A DNA stretch of 64,000 nt, taken from positions 248,001 to 312,000 of the forward strand of contig NZ_FWFV01000003.1 in the NCBI RefSeq assembly GCF_900172315.1, in the 5' to 3' direction. Positions 41,759 to 61,431 of this stretch are shown here, in pieces. Position 1 is the stretch's first letter. Each line of letters starts with the position of its first letter. The position numbers and the translations under genes are program-made. This DNA comes from Palleronia marisminoris (GTDB lineage Bacteria > Pseudomonadota > Alphaproteobacteria > Rhodobacterales > Rhodobacteraceae). The notes beneath the pieces are model-generated. The model searched no databases. It worked only from the letters and a program-made list of their open reading frames with translations, and had not been told where the DNA came from.

Positions 41759-41969
41759 GGCCCAGCGGCGACGGCGCCGTAGCATCAGGGCCGTCTGCCA
41801 TGACGGCGGATGGAAAGCCGTTCGATCTGATGGCGGAAGCTCGCTCTCAGCACTTCCGGCCCGTTGCAGGCCACTCCTCACTCCTATCGTCGGCTGCACT
41901 TGCGAGGTCGGCAGCGCGGCCGGACCGCCCTTGATTTTCCTCTGAAACAATTTGATGCCAGGCAACACC
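41759..41969. other. Non-coding spacer between the antiporter and the pqq relic
   Basis: No frame looks protein-like. pqqA, a tiny peptide gene with an E-x3-Y motif normally just upstream of pqqB, was searched for by eye and not found. The segment around 41930-41960 (TTGATTTTCCTCTGAAACAA) is the most AT-rich part and may mark an old deletion edge. Confidence 0.45.
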
Positions 41970-42360
41970 CGAGGCTTCAATCGCCGAGTACACCGAGCGA
42001 TCTCGATGCATCTCCGGGAAAGGTCCCTCTCTACATGTGGGCGAGACGGTCGACACCGGATTGCTGGGCGAACAGACGGTCGGGGTGGAACTGACAGCCG
42101 GGTCCACCCGGGCCTAATACATCCCCGGCTGCGCCCGGCTGACGGACGCGCTGCGGGGTCGGCTCGAGGGCGCGGCGGCGGTGTTCTTCGACGGCACGCT
42201 GTGGCGCGACGACGCGATGATCCGCGAAGGCCTCGGGCAGACGACCGGCGCGCGGATGGGGCATATGTCGATGTGCGGGCGAGAGGGGTCCATCGCCGCC
42301 CACCAGTTCGTCCTGGGACGCAAGGTCTACATCCACATGAACAACACCAACCCCGTCCTG
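41970..42360 (+). pseudogene. pqqB: pqqB remnant (PQQ biosynthesis protein B)
   Basis: Only the C-terminal third is left. Frame 2 gives LDASPGKVPLYMW (42002-42040). A shift to frame 1 at about 42040 continues GETVDTGLLGEQTVGVELTA, hits a TAA at 42115-42117, then runs on as YIPGCARLTDALRGRLEG, VFFDGTLWRDDAMIREGLGQ, ARMGHMSMCGREGSIA and KVYIHMNNTNPVLR. These are hallmark PqqB segments (PGKV.LY, FFDGTLW, GHM/GSIAA, INNTNP). The N-terminal metallo-beta-lactamase-like half with its metal-binding histidines is missing. One frameshift, one nonsense codon and truncations at both ends make it non-functional. Confidence 0.88.
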
Positions 42361-42989
42361 CGCGGCTGTATGCCGGACCAGGTGGGCGCGTGGGTGATCA
42401 ACCGGCACTACTACCAGCACTCGATCCCCATGACGGACGCCGCCTACATGTCTCGGGTCGGGGACCCGGCGCTTCGCCGCACGTGACGAAGCCGCATCGA
42501 GGACCACAACGTCACCGATATGAACGAGGGGAGCATCCGACACTGGCCGAGGCTGGCCGAGGCGGTGGGGCTCGATCCAGACTTCGTCGCCTCGACCCGA
42601 GGCGTGCTTTCCGCCAAACGCTTCACCGTCCACGCCAATGTGCGCTTCGTACGGCAAAAGACACTGCTCGAAGCCGTCGCGGCAAGTCTCACCGAGCTGT
42701 TCGCGCCGAAGATCCACGAGGAGCGGATCGCGGGATTTACGAAGAACTACCCATTCGCGGACGAGCTTCGCTGTCCTATTTCGTGAACCGGCTGAAGGAA
42801 GCCCCGAAGGACGCCGCCTTCGGCCTCGGCTGGGTTCTCGACCACGCCGACACGGTCGAGAAGCAGGATGCGCTGGTCTTCAAGACAGACGTGCTCTGGT
42901 CGCAACTCGGCGGGCTTCACGCAGCCCGGCCACATCCCCCCGGCGCCTGGCAGCCTGGCACCCGCCTCGCCGACGCGAAGGCCGCCTGA
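42361..42989 (+). pseudogene. pqqC: pqqC remnant (PQQ synthase)
   Basis: Frame 1 passes straight from pqqB into the middle of PqqC: MPDQVGAWVINRHYYQHSIP, MTDAAYMSRVGDPALRRT. A TGA at 42484-42486 replaces the expected Trp codon, after which RSRIEDHN, HWPRLAEAVGLDPDFVASTR and SLTELFAPKIHEERIAGF continue. A one-base loss near 42766 moves the rest into frame 3: SLSYFVNRLKEAPKDAAFGL, GWVLDHADTVEKQDALVFKT and DVLWSQLGGLH. About 40 N-terminal residues are gone and a few residues around EKQDALVF look deleted. PqqC normally performs the final oxidative ring closure of PQQ. Dead gene. Confidence 0.9.
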
Positions 42990-43264
42990 TGGAGCGCGAT
43001 GCCCTCCTCAACGTGCCCCCGGGCGTGCGCATCCACCGCGACGACGAGCGAGATCGAAGGGTGCTGCCGGCGCCCGAGCGTGCTGGGTGACCCTCGACCC
43101 GGTGGCCCACGCCGTCCTGTCCGCAATCGGCGACGACCGCAGGTTCGGACAGATCGTCGACGATCTTGCCGCGCGGCCTTCCGCCCCACTCCGAAGAGAT
43201 CGCAGCAAATCGGGCGGGCTTCCTGAAGGCCCTGCAAGACCGGCGCTTCCTGGAGTTGGGATGA
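42989..43264 (+). pseudogene. pqqD: pqqD remnant
   Basis: The ATG at 42989 still overlaps the pqqC stop (TGATG). MERDALLNVPPGVRIHRDDE matches the start of PqqD, the peptide chaperone that presents PqqA to PqqE. Reading then needs two frame changes: frame 2 to frame 1 for TLDPVAHAVLSAIGDDRRFG and QIVDDLAA, and frame 1 to frame 3 for HSEEIAANRAGFLKALQDRR and FLELG, ending at TGA 43262-43264. All segments are in PqqD order, so the gene is nearly full length but broken by two indels. Confidence 0.86.
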
Positions 43265-43723
43265 TGACCCACGCCACCGACAAGGTGTCCCCGACGATCG
43301 CGATGCCCGCGAAGATGACCCACCGTTGCCCGCTGGCGTGTCCGTACTGCTCCACCCCGATCGACCTGGCACTTCAGGCGAGCGAGCTGCCCACGGACGA
43401 GTGGGAGAGGGTGTTCGCGCAGGCGGCGAAGCTGGGTGCCCTGCAACTGCACCATTCGGGCGGCGAGCCGGCCTTGCGCAGGGACCTTGTCCAGCTGACG
43501 GCCGCCGCGCGCGGAGGGGTCGAACTATCCCAAAGCGCTGCATGGGTGGCTGGGGCTCGACCGGCTGGTGATCGCCCCCGACGGACAAATCATGCCCTCC
43601 CACGCGGCCGCATCGCGCCCGGCTGACGGACGCGACCGACGCATTCGCGACGGCCGAGGCCTCGTTGATCCACCCGGGCGCGCCGGGCAAGCCGGTTCCG
43701 AAGAGGTGTGAGGATCCGAGCTT
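43264..43723 (+). pseudogene. pqqE: pqqE remnant (radical SAM PqqA peptide cyclase)
   Basis: Starts at ATG 43264 (43261 possible), overlapping the pqqD end. The radical-SAM cluster motif RCPLACPYC (C22, C26, C29) and LGALQLHHSGGEPALRRDLV are intact. At about 43520 a large internal deletion jumps to the C-terminal part: NYPKALHGWLGLDRLVIAPD and GQIMPSHAAA, with small indels scrambling the PKACMGGWG region and Ser in place of the usual Cys of the auxiliary-cluster motif MPCHAA. A weak echo of the C-terminus may extend to about 43723. More than half of the roughly 370-residue protein is missing. Confidence 0.87.
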
Positions 43724-43993
43724 CGCGACACCGCCCTCCGACCGCATCCGCGTGAGGAAGCCACTCTGGGCTGTCCCCGACGGAGGGCGTCGAGATCATC
43801 ACGGGCCGGGCTCGCACTAGCGAAGAACGTCTTTCAGCGGATGCGGCAATGGTTCGCGCACCACGTCGGGGGGTCAGGCATGGCTTCGTCGAGAGCGACT
43901 CGATCCTCGGCGCCGGGCGTCGACGGTGCCCGATCTCGACACCGCCGTCGCCATGCCCCGCTGGCCAGGCGCGTGGTTCGGGACCAAGCCAGG
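43724..43993. other. Unassigned segment after the pqq relic
   Basis: No clear gene. The plus-strand frame ending at TAG 43994-43996 gives VPDLDTAVAMPRWPGAWFGT, which looks like a genuine protein C-terminus, but the sequence before it is not continuous in any frame. Probably the eroded tail of another gene of the former pqq neighbourhood. Confidence 0.35.
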
Positions 43994-44614
43994 CTAGATT
44001 AGGCCCTTCTGCTTCGCCACATGCGTCGAAATCACGTCCATCAGCGCCGGCGAGAGCGCGTCGTATGGCGGCAGGCCGAGTTCGTCCAGCCTCGCGCGGA
44101 TCGCCGGCATCTGGTCGGGCGGCGTGCCGGACTCGATGATCGATGACACGAACGCGGCGAATTCGGGGGGCGACCAGCCATCCTGATTGCTTAGCTCGGT
44201 ATGGACGAAATCGAGACCGTGGAACGGATGGCCTTCGTTCTCGATGCGCCCGAACATATGCGTGCCGCAGGCCTTGCAGGCGTGGCGCTGGATCGTCGCG
44301 CTGGGATCGACGACCTCCAGCTTTTCGCCGTGCTCGACAATGGCGACATGGTCGCGCCCGACCACCGCGATCTGCGCAAAGACCGCACCCGCGGGTTTCC
44401 AGCACTTGGTGCAGCCGCAGACGTGATTGTGTGCCGTCTGCGCCGACACGCGTACCTTCACCGGGTCGGTCTTGCACTTGCAGGTCAGCGTGCCGCCGCT
44501 GAACCCTTTTTTGCCGCCAGGTACCCCGTCATCCACAGCCGGATGGATCTTTACGCCGGATGTCGGCGGGGTGCTGACGGTCTTGCCGCCGAAAAGTCCA
44601 GAAAGAATGCTCAT
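43994..44614 (-). CDS. gfa: S-(hydroxymethyl)glutathione synthase (Gfa)
   Basis: 206 residues. Two zinc sites are visible: C45/C47 (TCKCKTD) with HACKACGTH (C113/C116), and C66/C68/C71 ([12 protein letters not shown]), the Gfa layout. In Paracoccus this protein speeds condensation of formaldehyde with glutathione; other work questions a true enzymatic role. The start at 44614 was chosen over an upstream ATG at 44680 because [10 protein letters not shown] is the family N-terminus and AGGAGACGGGC precedes it. It feeds the glutathione-dependent dehydrogenase encoded nearby. Confidence 0.93.
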
Positions 44615-44753
44615 GCCCGTCTCCTCCGCAGGGCCCACGTAAGCCGAGCATGCTGCCGAACCGCGCACAGCACAAGACATTCGTGCAGGAGCGAATCATC
44701 AACCAAGAGGGGCAGGAACGCGCCCCCGAAGTTGAGGCGCCATAAATGCAAAA

Positions 44754-44811: not shown

Positions 44812-45216
44812 TCATTCGACGGTCAAGCCCTCGTCGTCATACTGGGCCAGGTAGGCCAGAAGATCGACCACTTCTTCATCCTTGCGCAGGCCGGGGAACG
44901 CCATCTTCGTCCCGGGGACAACGTCGCGCGGCGCCTGCAGGTAGGCGTGAAGCGTCTCGGTGTCCCAGACGTTGGTCTCGCCGAATTCCTGCATCGCCGT
45001 CGAGTACGAGAAGCCCTCGACGGAGGCGGGCACGCGACCGAAAAGCTGGTTCAGCTCGGGTCCGACACGGCTTTGGGCATCCTCTCCGACGGCGTGACAG
45101 GCGGCGCAGCGGCGAAACACACGCTCGCCGGCCTCGGGGTCTCCGCCGGTGAAGTCCTGCGCCTGCGCGGAGAATGCCGTCACTGCTACTGCGAAAACGG
45201 GTAGTACTTTCATCAT
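44812..45216 (-). CDS. Class I c-type cytochrome (c2/c552-like)
   Basis: 134 residues. Signal peptide (cleavage at AQA, about 19), heme site CAACH (C37, C40, H41) and distal Met in GTKMAFPGL (M105). Small soluble periplasmic cytochrome, likely an electron acceptor between XoxG and the terminal oxidase, or part of the methanol-derived electron path. In Paracoccus a similar small cytochrome gene accompanies the glutathione-dependent formaldehyde genes. Own terminator downstream. Confidence 0.92.
   Translation of the reverse strand: MMKVLPVFAVAVTAFSAQAQDFTGGDPEAGERVFRRCAACHAVGEDAQSRVGPELNQLFGRVPASVEGFSYSTAMQEFGETNVWDTETLHAYLQAPRDVVPGTKMAFPGLRKDEEVVDLLAYLAQYDDEGLTVE

Positions 45217-45772: not shown

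Positions 45773-45773
<1 letters not shown>
45405..45773 (-). CDS. Small secreted protein of unknown function (SecD-P1-like pattern)
   Basis: 122 residues with a signal peptide (MRVASWSLVVATAVATAASA). The mature part has LCFSDTQQEALREFTGDHIG and DTVTVAIGEAKVFFLQVVEP, a pattern vaguely like the P1 head of SecD (E-FT..-VG). The start codon shares one base with the stop of the formaldehyde dehydrogenase gene (TGATG), so the two are translationally coupled. Two cysteines (CF, GCIDW) may form a disulfide. Function unknown; its linkage suggests a C1 role. Confidence 0.72.
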
Positions 45774-46900
<1,127 letters not shown>

Positions 46901-47345: not shown

Positions 47346-48131
47346 TCAGGTGCCCGAGCGTCCGACCTCGATCGGCCAGTTCTCGCTGAAGACGTTGCCC
47401 TCGGTATCCTGCGCCTCGACCGCGATCGGCTCGCCGTTCGGCTCGAACTCGAACCGGACGCTCGGATCCTCGGATAGCGAGATGCCGCCCTCCATCTTCA
47501 GGATCGGCGCGTCGCCCTGGGCGATCGTCAGGCTGTGGATGAAGTGCGCCGGGATGTAGTGGCGGGTCAGCTGATCCATCTGCAGGCCCGAGTTGTTCGG
47601 GTGCCGGATCATCAACTGCGCCTCGGGATTTGCGCCGTCGAACTGCCGTAGCTTCATCAGGCCAAGATTCGCCATCGCCGCCTCGGGGTCCTTGCCCATC
47701 GGCGCCGAACAGCCGCCCGAAGCCTTGACGAAAGTCTCGGTCATGTGCAGCGAGCCATCCGACAGCTCGGCCACCAGGTGCACGTTCGTGTAGGACTGTA
47801 CCCGCACCCGCGTGTCGATCCGCGAGACGCCGGCATCCGCGCCCAGTTCAAACACGGCGGCAATCGGCGCGGGGTTCTCGTCGATGACCAACGTCACGCG
47901 CTCGACCCGCAGGCCGGCGTCTTCGGGCGGCGCGAAGTGCATCGTCACCGGCACCGTCGCCGCATCCTCGGCCCGATACGGCGTCTCGAGCGTCACGATG
48001 TCGCTCTGCTGCATCGCGCGTCCGTCGAAGACATCGGCAACGATGTCCGACCACGCATCCGACTCTGCCTGCGCCAGCCCGGCCGTCGCAACGAGCAGAC
48101 CGGCCGCTACGGCCATGTGCGTCCTCAGCAT
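47346..48131 (-). CDS. Quinoprotein dehydrogenase-associated SoxYZ-like carrier protein
   Basis: 261 residues with a signal peptide (AGLAQA, about 17-22). The N-terminal half resembles SoxY and ends in the swinging-arm motif SGGCSAPMG (C141); the C-terminal half resembles SoxZ (RHPNNSGLQMDQLTRHYIPA). This SoxY-SoxZ fusion is a known companion of PQQ-dependent dehydrogenases (TIGR04557 as I recall). What it carries is unknown. It is followed upstream by the metallohydrolase gene in the same direction, the usual pairing. Confidence 0.9.
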   Translation of the reverse strand: MLRTHMAVAAGLLVATAGLAQAESDAWSDIVADVFDGRAMQQSDIVTLETPYRAEDAATVPVTMHFAPPEDAGLRVERVTLVIDENPAPIAAVFELGADAGVSRIDTRVRVQSYTNVHLVAELSDGSLHMTETFVKASGGCSAPMGKDPEAAMANLGLMKLRQFDGANPEAQLMIRHPNNSGLQMDQLTRHYIPAHFIHSLTIAQGDAPILKMEGGISLSEDPSVRFEFEPNGEPIAVEAQDTEGNVFSENWPIEVGRSGT

Positions 48132-48186: not shown

Positions 48187-49107
48187 TCATTCCCACTCCA
48201 ACTCGGTGAAGGCGGCGGTCACGTTTCGCCGATGGAAGGTTTCGACGAGGGCCCAGTTCCCGGCGGGCGGGGGGACCGCCTCGACGGCCTCGGCGAGGCC
48301 CGCGCCCTTTGCGATCTGGGCCCGGACCGAGTCGGCCAGGCTGGCCAGATAGCCGAACTGGGCCGCGGCCGCCGCGGGCCAGTCGACGGTTGCCGGCCCG
48401 TGACCCGGCACCGCTCGGGCGGCTGGCAGGGATGTCAGCTCTGCCTCGAGCGCGAGCCAGCCCGTGATGCTGCCGTCGATGACCGGCAGATGCTCGGTGA
48501 ACAGCAGGTCGCCTGCGAAGAGCGTTCCGGTCCGCTCGTCGAGCACGGTGAGGTCGTTGTCCGTGTGCGCCGTCGGCCATGCCCGAAGCGAAAGCGGCCG
48601 GTCCCCCAGGTCGAGCGTCGCGATGGCCGCGACCTCACGGTCCGGCAGGACCACCTCAAGCCCGTCCGTCGCCTCGTCGCCGAGCGCGTCCCGAGCGCCC
48701 GCCAGGTAGTGCTCGGCCCGGGCGGCGAGCGCGGAAGCGAGCTTGGCGTGGCCCACGACCTCTGCCCCCGAGGCGGCCACGACAGGTGCCGCGCCCAGCA
48801 CGTGGTCCGGGTGCATATGCGTGTAGATGACATAACGGATCGGCTGGTCCGTGATGCTCCGGACCGCCTCGACCAGCGACGCGCCGACGGTTGCGCTGCC
48901 GCCGGGATCGATCGCGGCGACCGCCTTACGGCCGACGACGAAGCCTATGTTCGCGATCGCGCCCTCGTTTTCGGGTGACGCGAGGGCGACCGCGCCCGCG
49001 ATCACGTAGACCCCCGGAGCGACCTCCTTTGGGTCCAACGCCGCAGCGGGCCAGGCGAACAGCCAGAACGCTGCCGCTGCTGCAAATGTGCGGTCCGTCG
49101 CGGGCAT
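48187..49107 (-). CDS. Quinoprotein relay system zinc metallohydrolase (SoxH-like)
   Basis: 306 residues, signal peptide then a metallo-beta-lactamase fold with THMHPDH (H97, H99, D101, H102), further ligand His in GHAKL and HTDNDL, and GHGPATVDWP. Family name recalled as quinoprotein relay system zinc metallohydrolase 2. Probably acts with the SoxYZ-like carrier on a thiol-bound intermediate. The start at 49107 was chosen because it gives a proper signal peptide. Divergent from xoxF, with a 308-bp gap. Confidence 0.9.
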   Translation of the reverse strand: MPATDRTFAAAAAFWLFAWPAAALDPKEVAPGVYVIAGAVALASPENEGAIANIGFVVGRKAVAAIDPGGSATVGASLVEAVRSITDQPIRYVIYTHMHPDHVLGAAPVVAASGAEVVGHAKLASALAARAEHYLAGARDALGDEATDGLEVVLPDREVAAIATLDLGDRPLSLRAWPTAHTDNDLTVLDERTGTLFAGDLLFTEHLPVIDGSITGWLALEAELTSLPAARAVPGHGPATVDWPAAAAAQFGYLASLADSVRAQIAKGAGLAEAVEAVPPPAGNWALVETFHRRNVTAAFTELEWE

Positions 49108-49415
49108 TTCGCTCCCCCTTCCCGAACGCTGTGGACCAACCGGCGAACACAAGAATCCAGAGCGCCACAGCCCGTCCGAAGTCGCGGACAGGCGGCCGTC
49201 GCCGGCACGAATATTTGCTGCTTGCCTCAACGTAAATCCTGTGCCTAGTCTGATTTATTCCACCGCGGCTGCCGTTAAAGCAACGCATTTGACTGCTCGG
49301 GGGGAGGCTATTTCGAGCACATCTGAACACCGCTTTTGCGGCGTTGGCGGGGAAGCGAGGTGCGACGCGGGATCCTTTCGATCCCGCGCGAGACGGCCGT
49401 GGAGGAGGAAATAGA
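49108..49415. promoter_or_regulatory. xoxF / metallohydrolase divergent promoter region
   Basis: 308 bp with no credible gene. A sigma70-like pair for xoxF is TTGCCT (49222-49227) and TAGTCT (49246-49251), 18 bases apart. A second TTGACT (49289-49294) has no good partner. A perfect hairpin sits just before the xoxF ribosome site. No regulator gene for xoxF (MxbDM, FlhSR type) lies in the window. Confidence 0.5.
49366..49388 (+). promoter_or_regulatory. Hairpin in the xoxF 5' leader
   Basis: CGCGGGATC-CTTTC-GATCCCGCG: a perfect 9-bp stem and 5-base loop, ending 12 bases before the ribosome-binding site GGAGGAGG (49401-49408). Could stabilise the mRNA 5' end or affect translation. Confidence 0.6.
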
Positions 49416-51263
49416 ATGAAAAGTGGATTGCTCGGCGCAGTGTCTATCGCTGCGGTGACTGCTGTCGCCTGGTCGGCGTCAGCCAATGAACAGCTTCAAA
49501 CCATGGCTGAGGAACAGCCAGGCGAATGGGTCATGCCGACCGGCAACTATGCCAACTGGCGCTACTCGGAACTCGACCAGATCGACAAGGACAACGTCGA
49601 CCAGCTCCAGGTTGCCTGGAGCATGTCGACCGGCGTCCTGCGGGGCCACGAGGGCAACCCCCTCGTGATCGGCGACACGATGTACTTCTCGACGCCGTTC
49701 CCGAACAACGTCTTTGCCGTCGACCTTGCGAATGACGGCATCATCAAGTGGAAATACGAGCCGCAGCAGGACCCGCAGGTCATCGGCGTGATGTGCTGCG
49801 ACACGGTAAACCGGGGCGTGGCCTACGCGCCCGAAACGGATGCCTATCCGGCGACGATCATCCTGAACCAGGCCGACACGACGGTCGTCGCGTTGTCCGC
49901 CGACACCGGCCAGGTGCTGTGGGAAGTCCAGAACGGCGATCCCGGCAAGGGCGAGACGGCGACGATGGCGCCGCAGGTCGTGAAGGACAAGGTTCTCGTC
50001 GGCAACTCGGGCGGTGAATACGGCGTTCTGGGCCACATGACGGCCTATGACATCGCCACCGGCGAAGTCGCATGGCGGGCCTTCTCGGCCGGTCCGGACG
50101 ACATGACGCTGCTCGACCCCGAGAACACCACCCATCTGGGCGAGCCTGTGGGCGTGGACTCGGGCACGGCGACCTGGGAAGGCGACCAGTGGCAGATCGG
50201 CGGCGGCACCACCTGGGGCTGGATCTCGTACGATCCCGAGCTGGATCTGGTCTATTACGGCACCGGCAACCCCTCGACCTGGAACCCTGCGCAGCGTCCG
50301 GGCGACAACCGCTGGTCGATGACCATCATGGCCCGCGACCCCGACGACGGGATGGCCAAGTGGCTCTACCAGATGACCCCGCATGACGAGTGGGACTACG
50401 ACGGCGTGAACGAGATGATCCTCGCGGATCTCGACTTCGAGGGCGAGGAGCGGAAGGTGGTGGTTCACCCCGACCGGAACGGCTTCGCCTACACGCTCGA
50501 CCGCGAAACGGGCGAGCTTCTGGTGGCCGAGAAGTACGACCCGTTCGTGAACTGGGCCACCCATGTCGAGATGGACCCCGAAAGCGACCAGTACGGGCGT
50601 CCGCAGGTCGTCGCCGAATACTCGACCGAGCAAGGCGGCGAAGACACCAACACGGCCGGCATCTGCCCGGCCGCGCTCGGCACCAAGGACCAGCAGCCTT
50701 CGGCCTACTCGCCCGAGACCAAGCTGTTCTACATCCCGACCAACCACGTCTGCATGGACTACGAGCCGTTCCGCGTGAGCTACACGGCCGGCCAACCCTA
50801 TGTCGGCGCCACCCTGTCGATGTACCCGACGCCGGAAAGCCACGGCGGAATGGGCAACTTCATCGCGTGGGACGCCGTCAACGGCGAAATCGTCTGGTCG
50901 ATCCCCGAGCAGTTCTCGGTCTGGTCGGGCGCGCTGGCGACAGCGGGCGACGTGGTGTTCTACGGCACGCTCGAAGGATACCTGAAGGCGGTCGACATGG
51001 AGACGGGCGAGGAGCTCTATCGCTTCAAGACCGGCTCGGGCGTGATCGGCAACGTCATGACCTACGAGCATGAGGGCGAGCAATATATCGCCGTGCTGTC
51101 GGGTGTCGGCGGATGGGCCGGCATCGGCCTTGCGGCCGGTCTGACCGACCCCGCTGCGGGCCTCGGCGCGGTCGGCGGCTACGCGTCCCTGTCCGACTAC
51201 ACCAACCTCGGCGGCCAGTTGACGGTCTTCAAGCTGCCCGAGGAAGTCGCCTCGTCGGAATAG
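49416..51263 (+). CDS. xoxF: Lanthanide-dependent methanol dehydrogenase XoxF
   Basis: 615 residues. Signal peptide (cleavage after about residue 23), eight-bladed quinoprotein propeller, adjacent-cysteine pair C127-C128 ([10 protein letters not shown]), metal ligand E201 (NSGGEYG), catalytic D327 and the extra lanthanide-binding D329 in [10 protein letters not shown]. That DYD (not DYA) separates XoxF from calcium-type MxaF. It oxidises methanol to formaldehyde (or formate) in the periplasm with PQQ and a light lanthanide, passing electrons to XoxG. Start at 49416 follows GGAGGAGG. No mxaI gene is present. Confidence 0.97.
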
Positions 51264-51404: not shown

Positions 51405-51914
51405 ATGATGCTGAAGCACGCAATCCGTGGTGTCGTCCTGGCGGCCTGCACCGCAGGCTTCGCCTCGGCCCAGGCCGCCGATCCAACCGCCGTCGAGAAC
51501 GATGCCGGCAAGTACTTCGACGCCGAAGGCTATCCCACGTTCAACATCGCCGAGGACGGGACGGTCGATTTCCACACCTACTCGGGCTTTCGCCGCTTCA
51601 ACTCGGAATGCCATGTCTGCCACGGACCGGACGGCGTCGGCTCCACATTCGCGCCGGCCCTCGTCGAGAGCGTGCAGGACATGAGCTACGAGGATTTCGT
51701 CGCCGTGGTCGCCGGCGGCCGCGAGAACGTCGGGTCAGGCAATCAGAACGTGATGCCCGCGTTCGGCACCAATCCCAACATCATGTGCTACCTGGATGAC
51801 ATATACATCTACCTGCGCGCACGTGGCGAGGGCGACCTGCCCCGTGGCCGTCCCGCCAAGAAGGAAGCGAAAAGCGATGTGTTTGCCGAGATGGAAGATT
51901 CCTGCATGGGTTGA
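51405..51914 (+). CDS. xoxG: Cytochrome c XoxG (methanol-oxidation c-type cytochrome, c553i-like)
   Basis: 169 residues. Signal peptide (FASAQA), heme motif CHVCH (C69, C72, H73), SGFRRFNSECHVCHGPDG and FGTNPNIMCYLDDIYIYLRA; extra cysteines and this ending match the cytochrome family beside XoxF (c553i of Paracoccus). It takes electrons from XoxF. Its last 38 bp overlap the xoxJ start. The start uses the first of two Met codons after GGAACATCCG. Confidence 0.94.
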   Translation: MMLKHAIRGVVLAACTAGFASAQAADPTAVENDAGKYFDAEGYPTFNIAEDGTVDFHTYSGFRRFNSECHVCHGPDGVGSTFAPALVESVQDMSYEDFVAVVAGGRENVGSGNQNVMPAFGTNPNIMCYLDDIYIYLRARGEGDLPRGRPAKKEAKSDVFAEMEDSCMG

Positions 51915-52755
51915 GCAGGCGCGGCACGCCCTGCTGGCAATCGCCATCGCGGTCGCCGCACCTCACGCCGCCGTCGGTCAGGAGACCGGCGTCGGCGATG
52001 CATTCGAACTTGTCGACCCGGACACGCTGCGGGTCTGCGCCGACCCGCGCAACCTGCCCTTCTCGGACGAGGCCGGCGAGGGGTTCGAGAACGCGCTGGC
52101 CGAACTCGTGGCCGAAAAGCTCGGGCGGCCCAGCGTCGACTACACGTTCTTTCCCCAAGGCGTCGGCTTCGTTCGCAACACGCTGCAGGCCTTCCGGTGC
52201 GACATCATCATGGGCTACGCGCAGGGCGACGAACTGGTCCAGAACACCAACCCCTACTACCAGTCAGCCTATGCGCTGATCGTGCCGCCCGAGTCCGAGC
52301 TGGCCGACGTCACGCGGCTGGACGATCCACGGCTTCAGGGCAAGCGGATCGGGGTCGTCGCGGGAACTCCACCGGCTACCAGCCTCGCCAAGTACGGGCT
52401 GATGGGGACGGCGCGCCCGTACCACCTGATGGTCGACACGCGCGCCTCGTCCCCCGTGCACGACATGATCACCGATCTGGCCGCGGACGAGATCGACGCT
52501 GCCCTCGCATGGGGGCCCATGGCAGGCTACTACGCCCAGCAGCAGACGCCGCCGCTCAAGGTGATCCCCCTGACCTCCGAGGTGGACGGACCGCGGATGA
52601 CATACCGGATCACGATGGGCGTCCGTCCGTCGGACCAGGAATGGAAGCGCGAGCTGAACGACCTGATCCGCGAGAACCAGGCGGAAATCGACGCGCTTCT
52701 TCTCGACTACGGCGTGCCGCTGCTTGACGAGCAGGGCCAGCCGATTACCCGATGA
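51877..52755 (+). CDS. xoxJ: XoxJ / MoxJ-like periplasmic substrate-binding protein
   Basis: 292 residues. Signal peptide ending near AAVGQ, then a type II binding-protein fold: LRVCADPRNLPFSDEAGEGF, DYTFFPQGVGFVRNTLQAFR, GKRIGVVAGTPPAT. Family of the MxaJ/XoxJ proteins coupled to PQQ dehydrogenases; in Methylobacterium it helps activate XoxF. ATG 51877 follows AAGGAAGCG and starts inside the 3' end of xoxG. It overlaps the CXXCW gene by 4 bp. Confidence 0.93.
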   Translation: MCLPRWKIPAWVEQARHALLAIAIAVAAPHAAVGQETGVGDAFELVDPDTLRVCADPRNLPFSDEAGEGFENALAELVAEKLGRPSVDYTFFPQGVGFVRNTLQAFRCDIIMGYAQGDELVQNTNPYYQSAYALIVPPESELADVTRLDDPRLQGKRIGVVAGTPPATSLAKYGLMGTARPYHLMVDTRASSPVHDMITDLAADEIDAALAWGPMAGYYAQQQTPPLKVIPLTSEVDGPRMTYRITMGVRPSDQEWKRELNDLIRENQAEIDALLLDYGVPLLDEQGQPITR

Positions 52756-53306
52756 TCCTGCGGCCGCTCGGTGCTGCCGCAGGCGTCGTCCTGCTGATCT
52801 GCGGAGGCGGGGCGGCGCAGACGGTGCCGGAGCCGCCCGACTTTCGCATGTCCGACTACCGCGCGGCGGTGCCCGAGACGCTGGCGGGCGCAACGGTGAT
52901 CGACGCCGCGGAGGCCGAGCGGCTCTGGCGTGAGGGCGCGGCGGTCTTCGTCGACGTCCTCCCCCGCCCCGAGCGTCCGGCGGAGTTGCCGCCAGACACC
53001 TACTGGCGCGCAGCCGAACGGCTCGCCATTCCCGGCAGCACCTGGCTTCCGAATACCGGCTACGGAGTGCTTGCGCCCGAAGTGCAAGCCTATTTCGAGG
53101 CAGGCCTGGCATCCATCGGCGAGGCAACGACGCCCGCCGTGTTCTATTGCCTGAAGGATTGCTGGATGTCGTGGAACGCAGCAAAGCGCGCGATCGAGCT
53201 GGGGCTGGAGGACGTCCACTGGTTCCCCGACGGAACCAATGGCTGGGTCGAGCGGGACCTCCCGCTCGAACCGCTGAAGCCCTGGGTGCCCGAGACCAGC
53301 GACTAG
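52752..53306 (+). CDS. PQQ-dependent catabolism-associated CXXCW-motif rhodanese-like protein
   Basis: 184 residues with a signal peptide. A rhodanese-like fold ending in VFYCLKDCWMSWNAAKRAIE; the cysteines are C133 and C137 with three residues between, followed by W138. This is the family named for a CXXCW motif in PQQ-dependent catabolism clusters. Likely periplasmic sulfur or redox chemistry; partner may be the SoxYZ-like carrier. Overlaps xoxJ by 4 bp and ends the xoxF-G-J arm. Confidence 0.9.
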   Translation: MILRPLGAAAGVVLLICGGGAAQTVPEPPDFRMSDYRAAVPETLAGATVIDAAEAERLWREGAAVFVDVLPRPERPAELPPDTYWRAAERLAIPGSTWLPNTGYGVLAPEVQAYFEAGLASIGEATTPAVFYCLKDCWMSWNAAKRAIELGLEDVHWFPDGTNGWVERDLPLEPLKPWVPETSD

Positions 53307-54352: not shown

Positions 54353-55327
54353 TCAGTCCGGCGTCGTGACGACGCCCCACGGAAACTCGCCGACCTGGAC
54401 GGACTTGGTGACCTCGCGATCCTCGACGTCGATCACCGAGATGTCATTCGAGACGCCGTTGGTCGAAAACAGCAGCGACTCGTCGGGCGAGAAGCCAAGC
54501 TGCCAGACCCGCTGTCCGACGAGCAGGTAGTCCAGCACCTCGTAGGTTTCCGGGTCGACCACGGCGACACGGTTCGCGGGCCCGAGTGCGACGAAGGCCG
54601 TCTCCATGTCTTCGGTGATGCGGACGCCGACCGGCTGGATCGCCTCGGGGCGCAGGCCGGGGATGTCGAACTCGATCTTGTGCTTGATCTCGTGCGTCGC
54701 GGGGTCGATCACGCTGACCGTCCCGCCGATCTCGGACGAGACCCAGACCTCGGAGCCGTCGGACTTGAACTCGGCGAAGCGCGGGCGCTGGTCGACCAGG
54801 ACGTTGGCCACGATCTCGTGGCTTTCGGTGTCGATGAAATGCGCCATGTTCGTCGTCTCGGACGTGTTCACGATCACCGACCCGTCGGGCGAGACGCCCA
54901 TCCCCTCCGGCTCCACGCCGACGGGGATCTCGGCAATCATCGAGCGGTTCTCGAGGTCGACGACGGTGACGAGGTTGTCGTCCTCGTTCGCGATATAAAG
55001 CGGGTTGCCCGAGGGGTGCAGGACGAACAGCTCGGGGTCGGGTCCGGACGGCAGCGTGTGGAGCCGCTCGTAGGTTTCGGTGTCGTAGACCTCGACCGTG
55101 TCGTCGTCGCCGACCGCCACCAGCAGGTGGTTGCCGTCGTTGGCAACCGTGATGCCGCGCGGGCGCTGGCCAACCTCGAACGTGTCGATCACTTCGAGCG
55201 TGTCGCCGTCGAGCACCGTCACGTCGTTGCTCTTCTCGTTCGACACGAAGATCTTGTAGGCGAAGGCCGGCTGGGCAGCGAAGCCAGCCAGAAACAGCAC
55301 GGCGAAGCCGCGTGACGTCACTCCCAT
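54353..55327 (-). CDS. PQQ-dependent catabolism-associated YVTN beta-propeller protein
   Basis: 324 residues. Signal peptide (FAAQPAFA), then seven YVTN-like repeats such as KIFVSNEKSNDVTVLDGDTL, RPRGITVANDGNHLLVA and WQLGFSPDESLLFSTNG. This family regularly stands beside PQQ-associated ABC transporter genes. Periplasmic, possibly a scaffold. GAGGGAGGATACCG precedes the start. Confidence 0.91.
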   Translation of the reverse strand: MGVTSRGFAVLFLAGFAAQPAFAYKIFVSNEKSNDVTVLDGDTLEVIDTFEVGQRPRGITVANDGNHLLVAVGDDDTVEVYDTETYERLHTLPSGPDPELFVLHPSGNPLYIANEDDNLVTVVDLENRSMIAEIPVGVEPEGMGVSPDGSVIVNTSETTNMAHFIDTESHEIVANVLVDQRPRFAEFKSDGSEVWVSSEIGGTVSVIDPATHEIKHKIEFDIPGLRPEAIQPVGVRITEDMETAFVALGPANRVAVVDPETYEVLDYLLVGQRVWQLGFSPDESLLFSTNGVSNDISVIDVEDREVTKSVQVGEFPWGVVTTPD

Positions 55328-55387
55328 CGGTATCCTCCCTCGCGGCGCGTCGGCCGCTTCCTCCTCGTCAGGACGCTTCCACGTCCG

Positions 55388-56569
55388 CTACAACTCGCAC
55401 TCGCTCTCGGCCCGGTCATAGCCGAGCGTATCGAGGAACGAGGTCGGGTGCAGGAACCCCTCCTGCGGCGACACCGAGACCACGGTCTTGTCGTCGGCCA
55501 GCAGGATGGGCTGGCGCAGCTGCAGGTCCCAGTCGCGCAGGCTCAGCGCCTCGCCCTTGAAGGCCGCCAGCGTGAAATCGGGGCCCAGAAGATAGGAACG
55601 GATCGCCTCGGGCTCCGCGCTGTTGGTGCGCGTCGCCGCCTCGCCGATCATCCGTACCGCCATCCAGGCCAGCATGTCTTCGGCCTGCATGCGGCGGCCG
55701 TAGCCGTCGACGAAGCGGTTCTGCACCTGGATGCCGGCCCACTGCTCGTGCGCCGGGCTCCAGACCGTGGGTTCGAGCCCCGCCGTGCCCATGACGGGCC
55801 GCGGGTCCCAGGTATGGTAGGGTACGTAGGTGCCGAAAACCTCGTTCTCGTCTGCGACGAGGACGACGTCGTGGTCGGGTGCGCCTTGCGTGAAGACCGG
55901 CATCCGCTGCTGGACCTGGATGTGGCCGCTGTCGGTCGTCCGGGCGCCGCCCGTATCCTCGTAGATCCGTTCCTCGACGATGCGGCCGCCGAAGCGGTCG
56001 GCCGCGCGCCCGAGCGCTTGGGCGAAGGCCTCGTCCTCGGGATGCGAGCCCTTCAGCAGGAACCAGCGCGGCCACTTCTTCCACGCGAGGTACTGTGCCA
56101 GCGCATCGGCCAGCATCGCCCGGCTCGGCGCCACGTGGATGACGTTGGCGCGGCACATCTCGCCGCGTAGGGCATCGTCGGGCGCGCCGGTGTTCAGGAC
56201 CAGCATGTCGCGCGCCGCCGCGGCATCGGCGACGGCAAGCAGGGCCTCGGCCTCGAGGTCCGCGACGATCCAGCCCGCACCCGCATCGGCCACCTGCTGC
56301 ACCGCGGCCTCGGCATCCGCCGCGCCCGATACCGGCGCCGTCTCGAGCGTGTAGACCTGCCCCGTGAACTGCCCCGTCGTGTTGTTGTCGTCGAGCCCGA
56401 GCCGCGCGCCCGAGATGCCCAGATCCTCGGTCGGGCGGTCGAGCAGCGACAGCGTCTGCAGGCGCTCAGCCGGATGAAGATAACCGATCGTGATGTTGTC
56501 GGCTTCCTGCGCAGACGCAGAAATGCTGGCGGCGAAGGTGGTGATCAAAACACTCAGAATTCGCTTCAT
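55388..56569 (-). CDS. PQQ-associated ABC transporter substrate-binding protein (branched-chain type fold)
   Basis: 393 residues. Signal peptide (SASISASA region), then a Leu/Ile/Val-type binding fold (NITIGYLHPAERLQTLSLLD, MLVLNTGAPDDALR, WFLLKGSHPEDEAFAQALGR). It is the binding component of the ABC system whose ATPase and permease are encoded on the other strand at 57158-58743. First gene of a four-gene minus-strand operon (55388 to 53308). It is divergent from the DUF2380 gene, 92 bp apart. Confidence 0.9.
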   Translation of the reverse strand: MKRILSVLITTFAASISASAQEADNITIGYLHPAERLQTLSLLDRPTEDLGISGARLGLDDNNTTGQFTGQVYTLETAPVSGAADAEAAVQQVADAGAGWIVADLEAEALLAVADAAAARDMLVLNTGAPDDALRGEMCRANVIHVAPSRAMLADALAQYLAWKKWPRWFLLKGSHPEDEAFAQALGRAADRFGGRIVEERIYEDTGGARTTDSGHIQVQQRMPVFTQGAPDHDVVLVADENEVFGTYVPYHTWDPRPVMGTAGLEPTVWSPAHEQWAGIQVQNRFVDGYGRRMQAEDMLAWMAVRMIGEAATRTNSAEPEAIRSYLLGPDFTLAAFKGEALSLRDWDLQLRQPILLADDKTVVSVSPQEGFLHPTSFLDTLGYDRAESECEL

Positions 56570-56661
56570 GACTCATGCTAAGCAGAACCAGATGCGTCCG
56601 GCAAGCGTGCTGAATCGAAGCCGCTTGCGTGATCGCGCGACTGGCCTCTAGTGTCGGAGTC

Positions 56662-57168
56662 ATGAAGAAGATCGCCGTCGTTCTGATCGCAGTCGCTTGC
56701 CTCGCTGCCCTGCCGGCCACGGCCCAGGACGGCGCGCCCGTCGATGTCGCCGTGTTCGACTTCGAGCTGATCGACAGCAGCCTCGAAGGCGAGATGATGG
56801 GTGAGAACCCCGACGAGACGCGGCGCACCGCCGCGCTTGGCGCGCAGCTGAGGCAGGCCTTCGATGAGGCGGACGGCTTCGAGGTGATCGACATCGCTCC
56901 GGTCGCTGACGAGGCATCGCGGCGGAGCCTCCAACGCTGCGGCGGGTGCGACGTGACGCTGGCCGGGCAGGTCGGCGCAGAGTTGGCGGTGACGGGGACC
57001 GTGCAGAAGGTCTCGAACCTGATCCTGAACATCAACATCTACATCCGCGACGTGGAGACCGGCGAGACGCTCCGGGCGATGAGTGCCGACATCCGCGGCA
57101 ACACGGACGAGTCGTGGCAGCGCGGGATGGACTGGCTGATCCGCAACCGGCTGGACCTTGGCGCCTGA
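56662..57168 (+). CDS. Secreted DUF2380 family protein
   Basis: 168 residues. Signal peptide (LAALPATA), then VDVAVFDFELIDSSLEGEMM and GCDVTLAGQVGAELAVTGTV and QKVSNLILNINIYIRDVETG, the DUF2380 pattern (TolB/CsgG-like sheet). Found in PQQ/methanol clusters next to ABC genes; role unknown. Cysteine pair RCGGCD near the middle. Its end overlaps the proposed start of the ABC ATPase gene. Confidence 0.85.
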   Translation: MKKIAVVLIAVACLAALPATAQDGAPVDVAVFDFELIDSSLEGEMMGENPDETRRTAALGAQLRQAFDEADGFEVIDIAPVADEASRRSLQRCGGCDVTLAGQVGAELAVTGTVQKVSNLILNINIYIRDVETGETLRAMSADIRGNTDESWQRGMDWLIRNRLDLGA

Positions 57169-57943
57169 CGCGCCCACTCGCCCGGTGCCCGACCGAGCTG
57201 CGACGCCGGCTCCCCCTGCCCTGTCCGTCCAGTCCGTCAGCCATGCCTACGGCAAGCGCCGCGCGCTCGACGACGTGTCGCTTTCGGTGGCCAAGGGCAG
57301 CTTCACCGCGCTGCTCGGTCCGAACGGGGCGGGCAAGACGACGCTCTTCGCCCTCGTCACCGGGCTGCTCGGGGTGCAGTCGGGGCGCATCGCCATCTGC
57401 GGCGCCGAACCTTCACGCGACGGGGCGGCAGCGCTGGAGCCGCTGGGCCTTGTCTTCCAGCAACCGACGCTGGACCTCGACCTGACCGTCTCGCAGAACC
57501 TCGCCTATTTCGCCGCGCTCCGGGGGCTGAGCCGCCGTGACGGGCGGCAGCGGGCCGAGGACGAGCTGGCCCGCCTCGACATGGCCGAGCGTGCGGGCGA
57601 GCGGGTGCGCGACCTGAATGGCGGGCACCGCCGCCGGGTCGAACTGGCGCGCGCGTTGCTGCACGAGCCGCGCCTCCTCCTGCTGGACGAGCCGACGGTT
57701 GGCTTGGACATCGAATCGCGCCATCGCATCGTCGCCTATGTCCACGACCTTGCGCGGGAACGGCGGGTGGCGGTACTATGGGCCACGCACCTGATCGACG
57801 AGGTGCGGGCCGACGACGATCTGGTGGTGCTTCACCAGGGTGGCATTGCCGCCGCAGGCCGGTCGGAAGAGGTCGTCGCGGCCGCAGGTGCCGACAACCT
57901 GTCTGACGCCTTCACCCGCCTTACCCGGCGGGCCCCCGCATGA
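57158..57943 (+). CDS. PQQ-associated ABC transporter ATP-binding protein
   Basis: 261 residues from a TTG at 57158; a GTG at 57185 is an equally possible start and neither has a clear ribosome site. Walker A GPNGAGKT (54-61), Walker B LLLLDEP (D177/E178), switch His in WATHLIDE. The signature motif is LNGGH (153-157) rather than LSGGQ, as seen in this family. It powers the permease encoded next, overlapping by 4 bp. Direction of transport not known. Confidence 0.92.
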   Translation: MAPDAPTRPVPDRAATPAPPALSVQSVSHAYGKRRALDDVSLSVAKGSFTALLGPNGAGKTTLFALVTGLLGVQSGRIAICGAEPSRDGAAALEPLGLVFQQPTLDLDLTVSQNLAYFAALRGLSRRDGRQRAEDELARLDMAERAGERVRDLNGGHRRRVELARALLHEPRLLLLDEPTVGLDIESRHRIVAYVHDLARERRVAVLWATHLIDEVRADDDLVVLHQGGIAAAGRSEEVVAAAGADNLSDAFTRLTRRAPA

Positions 57944-58743
57944 GGCGCAAGCTGCGCGCCGCGCGCGGCGTGATCGCCCGCGAGATCCTGCGCTTCCTGC
58001 AGCAGCGCGGGCGGCTGCTGGCGGCGCTGGTTCGGCCGCTCGTCTGGCTGATCGTGTTCGCCGCCGGCTTCCGCTCGATCCTCGGCGTCGCGATCCAGCC
58101 GCCTTACGCGACCTACATCACCTACGACGTCTACATCGCGCCGGGGCTGATCGCGATGATCCAGCTGTTCAACGGGATGCAGTCGTCGCTTTCGATGGTC
58201 TACGACCGCGAGATGGGGTCGATGCGGGTCCTGCTGACCTCGCCCCAGCCGCGCTGGTTCCTTCTGTTCGCCAAGCTCGTCGCCGGCACCGTGGTCTCGA
58301 TCCTGCAGGTGCTGGCCTTCCTCGCCATCGCGGCCGCGTTCGGGATCACCTTCCCGCTCGCCGGCTACCTCCTGGTTCTGCCGGTGCTGATGCTGACCGG
58401 ATTGATGCTGGGGTCCGTCGGCATGTTCCTGTCCTCGGCGATCCGGCAGCTCGAGAACTTCGCGGGCGTGATGAACTTCGTGATCTTCCCGGCCTTCTTC
58501 CTGTCCTCGGCGCTCTACCCGCTCTGGCGGATGCGCGAGTCGAGCGAGATCCTCTGGCGCATCTCGGCAGCCAACCCGTTCACGCATGCGGTCGAGGCGA
58601 TCCGCTTTGCGATCCACGGGCAGCTGAACCTGTTCGCCTGCGGCGTTGTCACGGCGGTCTTGATTCTGTTTCTTGTGCTCGCGCTTTGGGGTTACGATAC
58701 GTCGCGCGGCCTGCGGGCACGAGCCGGTCCGGCGGGAGAATGA
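57940..58743 (+). CDS. PQQ-associated ABC transporter permease (ABC-2 type)
   Basis: 267 residues with six hydrophobic helices. PGLIAMIQLFNGMQSSLSMV, YDREMGSMRVLLTSPQPRWF and FVIFPAFFLSSALYPLW are typical of ABC-2 permeases of the exporter type. An ABC-2 permease paired with a Leu-binding-type periplasmic protein is odd in principle, but this combination is the standing arrangement in PQQ-dependent alcohol clusters. Confidence 0.92.
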   Translation: MRRKLRAARGVIAREILRFLQQRGRLLAALVRPLVWLIVFAAGFRSILGVAIQPPYATYITYDVYIAPGLIAMIQLFNGMQSSLSMVYDREMGSMRVLLTSPQPRWFLLFAKLVAGTVVSILQVLAFLAIAAAFGITFPLAGYLLVLPVLMLTGLMLGSVGMFLSSAIRQLENFAGVMNFVIFPAFFLSSALYPLWRMRESSEILWRISAANPFTHAVEAIRFAIHGQLNLFACGVVTAVLILFLVLALWGYDTSRGLRARAGPAGE

Positions 58744-58815: not shown

Positions 58816-59808
58816 ATGATTGCGAGAGTTTTCGGAACGGCGGCCATCGTCGCCAGCCTCTTGGGCGCCGCCGCTGCGGTCGCGCAGGAGCAGGACCTGC
58901 CGATTGTCCGGCTGGGCCTGCTGCAATACGGCACGGTCAACTGGGAAGCGAAGACGATCGTCGACGAGGGGCTGGACGAGAAGTACGGCTTCGAGTTGGA
59001 GATCGTGCCCTTCGCTGGTGGTGACGCCACGAAGGTCGCGCTGATGGCGGGCAATGTCGACGTCACCACGGACGACTGGCTGATGGTCTCGCGCCAGCGC
59101 GCCATGGGCGATCCGCTGGTCTTCATCCCCTACTCCACGTCGATCGGCGCGGTCATGGCGCCCTGCGAGGGGGACATCCAGTCGCTCGAGGACCTCGAGG
59201 GCAAGACGATCGGCGTCGCCGGCGGACCGCTCGACAAGAGCTGGCTGATGCTGCGGGGGATGGCCAGCGAAAGCGGGATGGACCTGGCCGCCGCGACCAC
59301 GCCCGTCTTCGGCGCGCCGCCGCTGCTGACCGAGAAACTGCGCCAGGGCGAACTCGACGCCGTGCTGAACTACTGGCACTACAACGCGCGGCTTGAAACC
59401 GAAGGGTATTGCGAGGTGATCTCGGCGCAGGAAGCGGCACGCAGCTTCGGCGCCGAAGGTGCCGTTTCGGCGGTGGGTTACGTCATGAACGAGGAATGGG
59501 CCGAGGAAAACCCCGATCTTGCCCGCGGTTTCGTCGACGCCAGCCGCGACGCCAAGGAGGTGCTGGCCGAAAGCGACGAGGCGTGGGAGCGGCTGCGCGA
59601 GATGACCGGCGCCGAGAACGAAGAGGTCTTCCAGATGCTCAAGCAGCGGTTCCGCGAGGGTATCCCGACCAGCACGCCCACGCAGGAGCGTGACGACACC
59701 GCGATCGTCTACAATGAACTCGCCAAGATCGGCGGCGAGCAATTGGTCGGCCCCGCAACCGAGATGGCGCCCGGCACCTTCTGGTCCGGCCTCGAGAGTG
59801 GCTCGTAA
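58816..59808 (+). CDS. NitT/TauT-type ABC transporter substrate-binding protein
   Basis: 330 residues. Signal peptide (AAAAVAQ), then an NMT1/SsuA-type fold: PIVRLGLLQYGTVNWEAKTI, FAGGDATKVALMAGNVDVTT, GKTIGVAGGPLDKSWLMLRG. The ligand is unknown; relatives bind nitrate, sulfonates or pyrimidine precursors. GGGAGGAGAACGTC precedes the ATG. First gene of a three-gene ABC unit between the methanol and formate genes. Confidence 0.92.
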   Translation: MIARVFGTAAIVASLLGAAAAVAQEQDLPIVRLGLLQYGTVNWEAKTIVDEGLDEKYGFELEIVPFAGGDATKVALMAGNVDVTTDDWLMVSRQRAMGDPLVFIPYSTSIGAVMAPCEGDIQSLEDLEGKTIGVAGGPLDKSWLMLRGMASESGMDLAAATTPVFGAPPLLTEKLRQGELDAVLNYWHYNARLETEGYCEVISAQEAARSFGAEGAVSAVGYVMNEEWAEENPDLARGFVDASRDAKEVLAESDEAWERLREMTGAENEEVFQMLKQRFREGIPTSTPTQERDDTAIVYNELAKIGGEQLVGPATEMAPGTFWSGLESGS

Positions 59809-59824
59809 AAGCGCCGCGTCGGCC

Positions 59825-60586
59825 ATGTCCCGGAGCCGAAGCGCGACCGCGGCGCGATTGCTGTCGGTCGCGCTCTTCTTCCTGCTGTGGCACGTCGTCT
59901 CGCTTTATGTCTCGCCCCGGCTCTTCCCGTCGCCGTGGCAGGTGGCGACCTTCGTCCTGCGCGAAACCGAGAGCGGCGTGCTGCCCTACCACCTGTCGAT
60001 CACGCTGCTGCGGGTGCTCGCGGCCTTCGTGCTGGCGATGGCGGTGGGGTCGGCGCTGGGGTTCCTGATGGGCCGCTCGCGCGGGGCCGACGTGGTGCTT
60101 CAGCCGTGGCTGATCCTGACGCTGAACATCCCGGCGCTGGTGGTGATCATCCTGTCCTACATCTGGATCGGCATGACCGAGACGGCGGCGATCACCGCCG
60201 TCGCGCTCAACAAGATCCCGAACGTCGCCGTCACCATCCGCGAGGGCGCCCGGGCGATGGACCCCACTTACATGGAGATGGCGCGCGTCTATCGCTTCTC
60301 GCGCGTGAAGATTTACCGCGACGTGATCGCGCCGCAGCTTCAGCCCTATTTCGCTGCGGCTGCGCGGTCGGGTATCGCGCTGGTCTGGAAGATCGTGCTG
60401 GTGGTCGAGCTGCTGGGCCGGTCGAACGGCGTCGGTTTCCAGATCCACCTCTACTTCCAGCTCTTCGACGTGCGCGCGATCATGGGCTATACGCTGGCCT
60501 TCGTCGCGGTGATGCTGGCGGTCGAATTCCTGGCGCTGCAGCCGCTCGACAGGCGGGCGCAGCGCTGGCGCCCGAAGCAGGTCTGA
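59825..60586 (+). CDS. NitT/TauT-type ABC transporter permease
   Basis: 253 residues with six membrane helices and the EAA-loop region AVALNKIPNVAVTIREGARA MD-type sequence. Start taken as ATG 59825; a GTG at 59798, overlapping the previous stop, would add nine residues and fits translational coupling. One base separates its stop from the next ATG. Confidence 0.9.
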   Translation: MSRSRSATAARLLSVALFFLLWHVVSLYVSPRLFPSPWQVATFVLRETESGVLPYHLSITLLRVLAAFVLAMAVGSALGFLMGRSRGADVVLQPWLILTLNIPALVVIILSYIWIGMTETAAITAVALNKIPNVAVTIREGARAMDPTYMEMARVYRFSRVKIYRDVIAPQLQPYFAAAARSGIALVWKIVLVVELLGRSNGVGFQIHLYFQLFDVRAIMGYTLAFVAVMLAVEFLALQPLDRRAQRWRPKQV

Positions 60587-61334: not shown

Positions 61335-61431
61335 CGGGGCGGCAAGATATTGCGTTCCGCCCGCGCGAGTGCCTAAGCTTCCATCGGCAGCGTGGGACGA
61401 AAGTTCGCTTGCTTGGGGAGGATGGCAGACC

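Follow-up and report, generated by a model that had tools for sequence, protein, structure and literature searches.

A pqqBCDE operon decayed in place near an intact XoxF methanol dehydrogenase module and a candidate PQQ capture system in Palleronia marisminoris

The window analysed here, a 64,000-nucleotide stretch of the Palleronia marisminoris genome (GCF_900172315.1, contig NZ_FWFV01000003.1, positions 248,001 to 312,000), carries on its plus strand, at 42013-43703, the remnants of pqqB, pqqC, pqqD and pqqE in their standard order. The pqqB remnant (42013-42363) has lost its 5' part, and its 3' end falls within a 173-bp deletion; the pqqC remnant (42364-42989) likewise lacks its 5' part; the pqqD remnant spans 42989-43264; and pqqE survives as three pieces (43261-43703) with deletions of 449 and 221 bp, the final recognisable piece stopping near 43703. 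An earlier note, made from the letters alone, had described this succession of segments and had held that the pqqC/pqqD and pqqD/pqqE overlaps persist, and both statements stand: the overlaps are TGATG at 42987-42991 and ATGATGA from 43261, and the order was recovered by tblastn and by blastn to three intact operons of the genus. In the tblastn comparison that the note had proposed for PqqB to PqqE, the proteins of the intact Palleronia rufa operon matched the interval 41900-43800 with 150 bits (PqqB), 211 and 109 bits (PqqC), 48.9 bits (PqqD) and 109, 42.7 and 35.4 bits (PqqE). Chance similarity is ruled out as the source of these matches by 500 dinucleotide shuffles of the interval, the top scores of which for the four proteins were 24.3-27.3 bits. 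At the DNA level, the locus is colinear with the three intact operons in blocks at 42013-42363, 42362-43511 and 43524-43609/43621 (71-84% identity), and one of the three also aligns at 43623-43699. NCBIfam profiles matched the PqqB, PqqC and PqqE pieces; the two stop-free pieces of pqqD, searched singly, gave no NCBIfam match, and the identity of this gene is based on tblastn and on the DNA alignment to the intact operons. No PqqA match remains at the remnant (tblastn, 41900-43800). A supposed transposase remnant 3' of pqqE was rejected, as Pfam gives it no support, and the whole window yielded neither a tRNA nor an Rfam match.

Every gene of the remnant is disabled. Two nonsense codons lie in frame, TAA at 42115 in pqqB and TGA at 42484 in pqqC, exactly where the note had placed stops, and six separate small frameshifts interrupt the reading frames: -1 at 42036 in pqqB and -1 at 42765 in pqqC (given previously as about 42040 and 42766), +2 at 43085 and +1 at 43184 in pqqD, and +1 at 43536 and -1 at 43564 in pqqE, the last two pairs having been announced by the note by gene only. 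The deletions that it had seen at the pqqB N-terminus, at the pqqB/pqqC joint and in the pqqE core correspond to a 5' truncation that removed the start of pqqB and to three internal frameshifting deletions of 173, 449 and 221 bp. To these are added net in-frame losses of 3 bp at 42306 and 12 bp at 42868 and an -11/-1 pair at 42922/42935. The stops, frameshifts and deletions listed here are private to the window when compared with the intact operons of the genus; the three intact relatives, aligned and counted by the same rule, have between them no more than three deletions, each of 3 bp. Homology, gene order and disabling lesions in all four genes together make the locus a real decayed operon, as the note had read it. 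The pqqB remnant (42131-42150) and the pqqE remnant (43615-43634) share one identical run of 20 nt, one copy lying about 10 nt from the 221-bp deletion point; it may be a templated patch or a chance repeat.

In a tree of the PqqB, PqqC and PqqE pieces, the remnant groups with the P. rufa operon (support 96/81) inside a five-row Palleronia-Jannaschia clade (100/97), and this placement makes the remnant a native operon with the long branch of a dead gene, its end branch measuring 0.44 against 0.036 for P. rufa, or 12 times as long. Along their branches, changes at codon positions 1, 2 and 3 amount to 39/328, 47/328 and 80/226 for the remnant, 17/322, 11/320 and 62/243 for P. rufa, 5/310, 10/319 and 46/227 for a second intact relative (G011), and 23/328, 19/328 and 45/226 for a third (G013), in which the rate at positions 1 and 2 is raised too. 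The dN/dS comparison that the note had asked for gives a divided answer. Pairwise values from the remnant to G011 (0.208) and G013 (0.291) exceed those of the intact pairs (0.107, 0.174 and 0.179, with dS up to 1.03, near saturation), but the value to P. rufa (0.172) falls within the intact range of 0.107-0.179, and relaxed selection is not shown by this measure. Since an old selected period dominates the substitutions, the case for gene death rests on the lesions and not on dN/dS.

The remnant is also the only pqq locus to be found in the source genome, a 3.75-Mb draft. Genome-wide searches with the pqqB, pqqC and pqqE profiles matched only the remnant at pqq-specific scores; the pqqE and pqqB profiles each gave one other weak match (51.7 and 28.9 bits), of a kind also obtained across the genus and from control genomes unrelated to it. 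Within the limits of the draft, the cell has lost the ability to make PQQ. Two objections may be raised to this statement. One is that the operon works and that its lesions are artefacts of sequencing or assembly, a proposal to which we give practically no credence: a combination of three large internal deletions, a 5' truncation, two stops and six small frameshifts excludes simple sequencing error, as the earlier note had argued from the number of lesions, and the twelvefold branch length and the intact neighbouring genes on the same contig speak to the same effect. The other is that an intact operon resides on a plasmid or contig absent from the assembly and that the remnant is a redundant dead copy. 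The division of the draft into 33 contigs lends this some plausibility, yet with a completeness of 99.79%, and with each of the three profiles returning only the remnant at pqq-specific scores, we consider it very improbable.

About 6 kb from the remnant, within a methanol oxidation module, lies xoxF. The minus-strand genes of the module encode S-(hydroxymethyl)glutathione synthase (gfa, 43994-44680; TIGR02820, 328.5 bits), a small c-type cytochrome resembling cytochrome c-550 (44812-45216; NF043008, 112 bits, below the cut-off of 240), S-(hydroxymethyl)glutathione dehydrogenase (adhI, 45773-46900; TIGR02818, 603 bits), a quinoprotein-associated SoxYZ-like carrier (47346-48131; TIGR04557, full profile) and a SoxH-like quinoprotein relay zinc metallohydrolase 2 (48187-49230; TIGR04559, full profile). 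On the plus strand follow the lanthanide methanol dehydrogenase XoxF itself (49416-51263; TIGR03075, 730 bits), a xoxG-type cytochrome c (51405-51914; TIGR03874), the periplasmic protein XoxJ (51796-52755; TIGR03871; PDB 6onp, E 1.1e-69) and a PQQ-associated CXXCW protein (52752-53306; TIGR03865). With the exception of the small cytochrome, the module genes score above curated cut-offs and match their profiles nearly end to end, and gfa, adhI, the SoxYZ-like and SoxH-like genes and xoxF are all intact. XoxF aligns over almost its full length with the solved XoxF 6oc5 (E 1.6e-293) and keeps 268 of 271 near-invariant columns (those constant in 80 or 81 of 81 relatives), the three departures being two changes of L to V and one of P to G. 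It has the lanthanide-selecting Asp of XoxF enzymes, in the motif DYD (aligned with DFD of 6oc5), and the adjacent Cys pair. The genome encodes a second PQQ-type dehydrogenase on contig 9 (L027, 1045-3330), of the glucose/quinate family, at 545 bits and below the cut-off of 833.

Unlike the remnant, the module does not appear to be native. XoxF is sister to that of Acuticoccus yangtzensis (98/90) within a clade of 18 of 50 rows (100/99), and forcing it together with the three Palleronia XoxFs was rejected (p-AU 4.6e-51). An initial, quick 82-row tree gave a corresponding clade of 19, made up mostly of Aurantimonadaceae and other families of the order Hyphomicrobiales, with the Palleronia XoxFs in another clade. 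Acuticoccus has the identical gene order adhI, short ORF, SoxYZ-like, SoxH-like, xoxF, xoxG, xoxJ, CXXCW and, among the loci compared, supplies the best match for five of the eight (the short ORF, the SoxYZ-like gene, xoxF, xoxG and xoxJ) and the fourth-best for the SoxH-like gene, adhI and the CXXCW gene matching better elsewhere. From the XoxF tree, the gene order and the best matches, it is most likely that the module core was acquired horizontally from an Acuticoccus-like lineage outside Palleronia. Had the module been resident throughout the decay of pqq, its intactness would be telling: the remnant holds 11 internal disabling lesions in 1.69 kb, a density that predicts some 20 for xoxF, xoxG and xoxJ together, where none is seen. 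If it arrived afterwards, a PQQ-dependent enzyme was gained by a cell that made no PQQ. Both histories point to external PQQ without proving it.

Beyond the module lie genes for a PQQ-dehydrogenase-associated beta-propeller protein and an ABC binding protein, ATPase and permease (54353-58743; TIGR03866, 03863, 03864 and 03861), followed on the plus strand by a PqqT-like periplasmic protein (58843-59808) and the adjoining ABC permease (59690-60586) and ABC ATPase (60588-61334). Residues 22-314 of the PqqT-like protein, nearly its full length, align with residues 5-298 of 9b1u (PDB 9b1u/9b1v, E 2.5e-69); at the residue that is Tyr in 9b1u and Trp in 9ooz the window protein has Tyr, and a lysine of the LDKxW type is kept in 38 of 38 sequences, that of the window included. 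Structure 9B1V represents PqqT with bound PQQ and Gd (PMC12828617, in excerpt), and the excerpted text of PMC12124388 reports that the PqqT of Methylobacterium extorquens binds PQQ with a Kd of 50 nM and helps to capture external PQQ. The window protein, a nearly full-length relative of the M. extorquens AM1 PqqT (Ho and Cotruvo 2019, as treated in excerpts of both papers), is by this homology a candidate PQQ binder, and such a binding protein alone could serve as a periplasmic trap for PQQ. The TIGR03863 protein at 55388-56569 was also considered as PqqT and rejected: in the PDB it matched only a binding protein for branched-chain amino acids, and that weakly, whereas 58816-59808 matches PqqT. 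In the set of loci compared, the nearest relatives of the PqqT-like protein, permease and ATPase (55-56%) lie just upstream of xoxF in Pararhizobium haloflavum (L082, 6396-11752). Directly after the PqqT-ABC genes, at 61369-63105, is a NuoE-NuoF fusion-like protein that scores below the NuoF cut-offs and may, we presume, be a formate dehydrogenase beta subunit, a label that would extend C1 oxidation.

The genus offers a first setting for these observations. Within a sample of 14 Palleronia-group genomes, the source included, three have intact pqqB, pqqC and pqqE (P. rufa MOLA 401, which is G007, with G011 and G013), and the other ten show no pqqC match at E<=0.01. A count by which five of eight XoxF holders in the genus would be without pqq had to be rejected: four of the eight carry a different PQQ-dependent alcohol dehydrogenase (PQQ-ADH; 38-39% identity), which leaves just four XoxF holders in the genus, of which three have intact pqq. 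In four Palleronia that have a non-XoxF PQQ-ADH and no pqqC, a PqqT-like gene and an ABC ATPase-like gene adjoin the dehydrogenase gene (L049, L050, L051 and L052). P. rufa and G011, both with pqq, gave no PqqT match; G013 has both pqq and PqqT.

A wider survey covered 394 genomes from 393 genera of the family, which we take to be Rhodobacteraceae. There, pqqC scored above cut-off in 81 genomes and a PQQ-ADH in 119, and 42 of these 119 had no pqqC match at E<=1e-5 (39 of 112 when only genomes at least 90% complete are counted). XoxF proper was found in 50 of the 394; besides the window, these are 47 with 71-78% identity and two partial cases, G021 and G095. Nine of the 50 are without a full pqqC (G000, G238 (weak match only) and seven without a match), a count that leaves out G131 (78% complete), where pqqC comes in two pieces. 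A search of 49 titled XoxF genomes (50 of 80 loci, less Pararhizobium haloflavum) found no pqqC match in Rubellimicrobium aerolatum, Salipiger mucosus and Tabrizicola aquatica, and none of eleven pqqC-less XoxF genomes had a full pqqE, G398 having a truncated one and G123 a weak match only. The cultured strain Salipiger mucosus DSM 16094 is without a pqqE match as well, and has a PqqT-like gene in the vicinity of its xoxF.

The distribution of PqqT was surveyed in 80 chosen genomes: 39 pqqC-less PQQ-ADH holders (those below 90% completeness, G110, G159 and G341, being left out), a sample of 28 pqqC-bearing holders, eight Palleronia, and five genomes with neither. A PqqT relative was present in 39 of 44 pqqC-less as against 18 of 31 pqqC-bearing PQQ-ADH holders (Fisher p 0.005, kinship ignored), and in none of the five genomes with neither pqqC nor PQQ-ADH. 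This contrast is due solely to the holders of non-XoxF dehydrogenases, which in the family sample have PqqT in 31 of 32 pqqC-less genomes, as against one of the sampled eight that bear pqqC, and the four Palleronia come in addition. In the neighbourhood of the gene, PqqT lay within about 10 kb of a non-XoxF ADH in 26 of 31 pqqC-less genomes as against seven of 29 pqqC-bearing ones (Fisher p 5e-6, kinship ignored); the former are drawn from 35 without XoxF (omitting G110, G159, G341 and G228, the last with a fragmented ADH), the latter from 34 (omitting G090, G125, G136, G388 and G402). pqqC itself was a neighbour of the ADH, at the same distance, in 11 of the 29, one of which had PqqT there as well. 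Among XoxF holders, the stratum to which the window belongs, there is no PqqT contrast (4 of 8 pqqC-less, 17 of 23 pqqC-bearing, p 0.38). A kinship-corrected test on a 64-row ADH tree gave six supported independent pairs, with on average 2.5 in the expected direction, 0.0 opposite and 3.4 without difference, and a median p of 0.25 in what is an underpowered comparison. Taken together, the contrast in non-XoxF holders and the six-pair result amount to a pattern and not, as yet, to demonstrated repeated evolution.

PQQ is indispensable to XoxF and, synthesis being dead, the XoxF of P. marisminoris would, if it works, draw on PQQ released by other bacteria. We thus favour, with a probability of about 0.68, the reading that the native pqqABCDE decayed in place, and that the foreign and intact XoxF, if working, uses the PQQ of others, with PqqT-like capture as the likeliest route and synthesis as a dispensable function. 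The steps would be the loss of function and decay in place of the native operon, the acquisition from an Acuticoccus-like lineage of a XoxF module that stays intact, the passage of PQQ from other bacteria across the outer membrane by diffusion or some receptor, and its trapping in the periplasm by the PqqT-like protein (58843-59808) and its ABC partner, as homology and linkage suggest; synthesis, dispensable once external PQQ is at hand, would then decay. We count against capture that 18 of the 31 pqqC-bearing PQQ-ADH genomes also have PqqT and that G013 combines it with pqq. It is also conceivable that PQQ is not obtained at all, and that XoxF is an inactive apo-enzyme or unexpressed, in a recently arrived module that will decay in its turn. 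The acquisition being of undatable age, intactness need not mean use, and in pqqC-less XoxF holders PqqT is no commoner than in pqqC-bearing ones; nevertheless, module genes in which no lesion was seen and whose profiles are matched nearly end to end, the conservation of all but three near-invariant columns, and the frequency of PQQ-ADH without a pqqC match in the family (42 of 119), hard to square with useless genes, lead us to judge an unused XoxF unlikely. Returning to scavenging by means of a PqqT-like protein, a broader form of the idea would be that Rhodobacteraceae can supply quinoprotein dehydrogenases of the same kinds through either of two modules, PQQ synthesis or PqqT-type ABC capture, that lineages repeatedly drop pqqABCDE and use community PQQ via PqqT and without PqqU, and that the window preserves a switch in progress, in which native synthesis has died and the foreign XoxF and the capture module live on. 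We offer this only tentatively, as a proposition somewhat less likely to be true than false.

PQQ scavenging in general is already known (PMC12124388, in excerpt), as is XoxF5 in Roseobacter (PMC5934484, in excerpt), and what is new here is the setting, in which native synthesis is dead, a foreign PQQ-dependent module is alive, a capture protein lies nearby and the family is rich in PQQ enzymes without pqqC. Among the open-licence papers searched, with passages of PMC11996626, PMC5934484, PMC4543880 and PMC5103831, none was found to describe a PQQ-less XoxF holder or pqq decay in such a combination. The window shares the neighbourhood of adhI, soxH, xoxF, xoxG and xoxJ with XoxF5 clusters known from Rhodobacteraceae, that of strain La 6 among them, and it has gfa near the module as in Rhodobacter sphaeroides (PMC5934484, in excerpt); unlike clusters of the La 6 type, its XoxF is Acuticoccus-like and lies near a dead native pqq operon. 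In M. extorquens, PqqT adds to the PQQ that the cell makes (PMC12828617, in excerpt), whereas in P. marisminoris, where synthesis is dead, capture would be the sole supply. A further likeness is to Escherichia coli with Gcd and PqqU, which has PQQ enzymes, makes no PQQ and draws on external PQQ (PMC12124388, in excerpt); unlike E. coli, the present genome has no PqqU relative, and its dead operon is still visible. PqqU, the outer-membrane importer known for PQQ, was rejected as the importer here: no relative was found at E<=1e-15 in the genome, and the family sample has one in 394 genomes, a near-absence that agrees with the excerpted text of PMC12124388. The same source infers that Alphaproteobacteria are likely primarily producers of PQQ; the sampled genomes argue against producer status for many Rhodobacteraceae.

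If our reading is right, these bacteria rely in part on shared cofactor for their lanthanide-dependent oxidation of methanol, and a prediction of methylotrophy that is based only on xoxF would need a check of the PQQ supply. About a third of the PQQ-ADH holders in the sampled family have no pqqC match, and a PqqT-type system offers a definite candidate for their means of supply; the named strains with XoxF and no pqqC match make the scavenging idea testable now. Traces of pqq decay were sought elsewhere as well. By tblastn, 11 XoxF loci of other pqqC-less genomes held no pqq pieces. In G398, which has a XoxF match, a 17-kb locus (L204) encodes PqqE only from about residue 114 (8548-9294), with no PqqB, PqqC or PqqD match, and is another truncated pqq operon. 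In G060 (L205, 3706-6484), a genome without a strong PQQ-alcohol-dehydrogenase match, the pqq operon has lost an internal part of pqqB and carries a frameshift in pqqC. Finally, G122 has a pqqC split by a frameshift (L206, 2186-5262) and a PQQ-ADH match with one TAA (L244), and both genes may be decaying or may contain sequencing errors.
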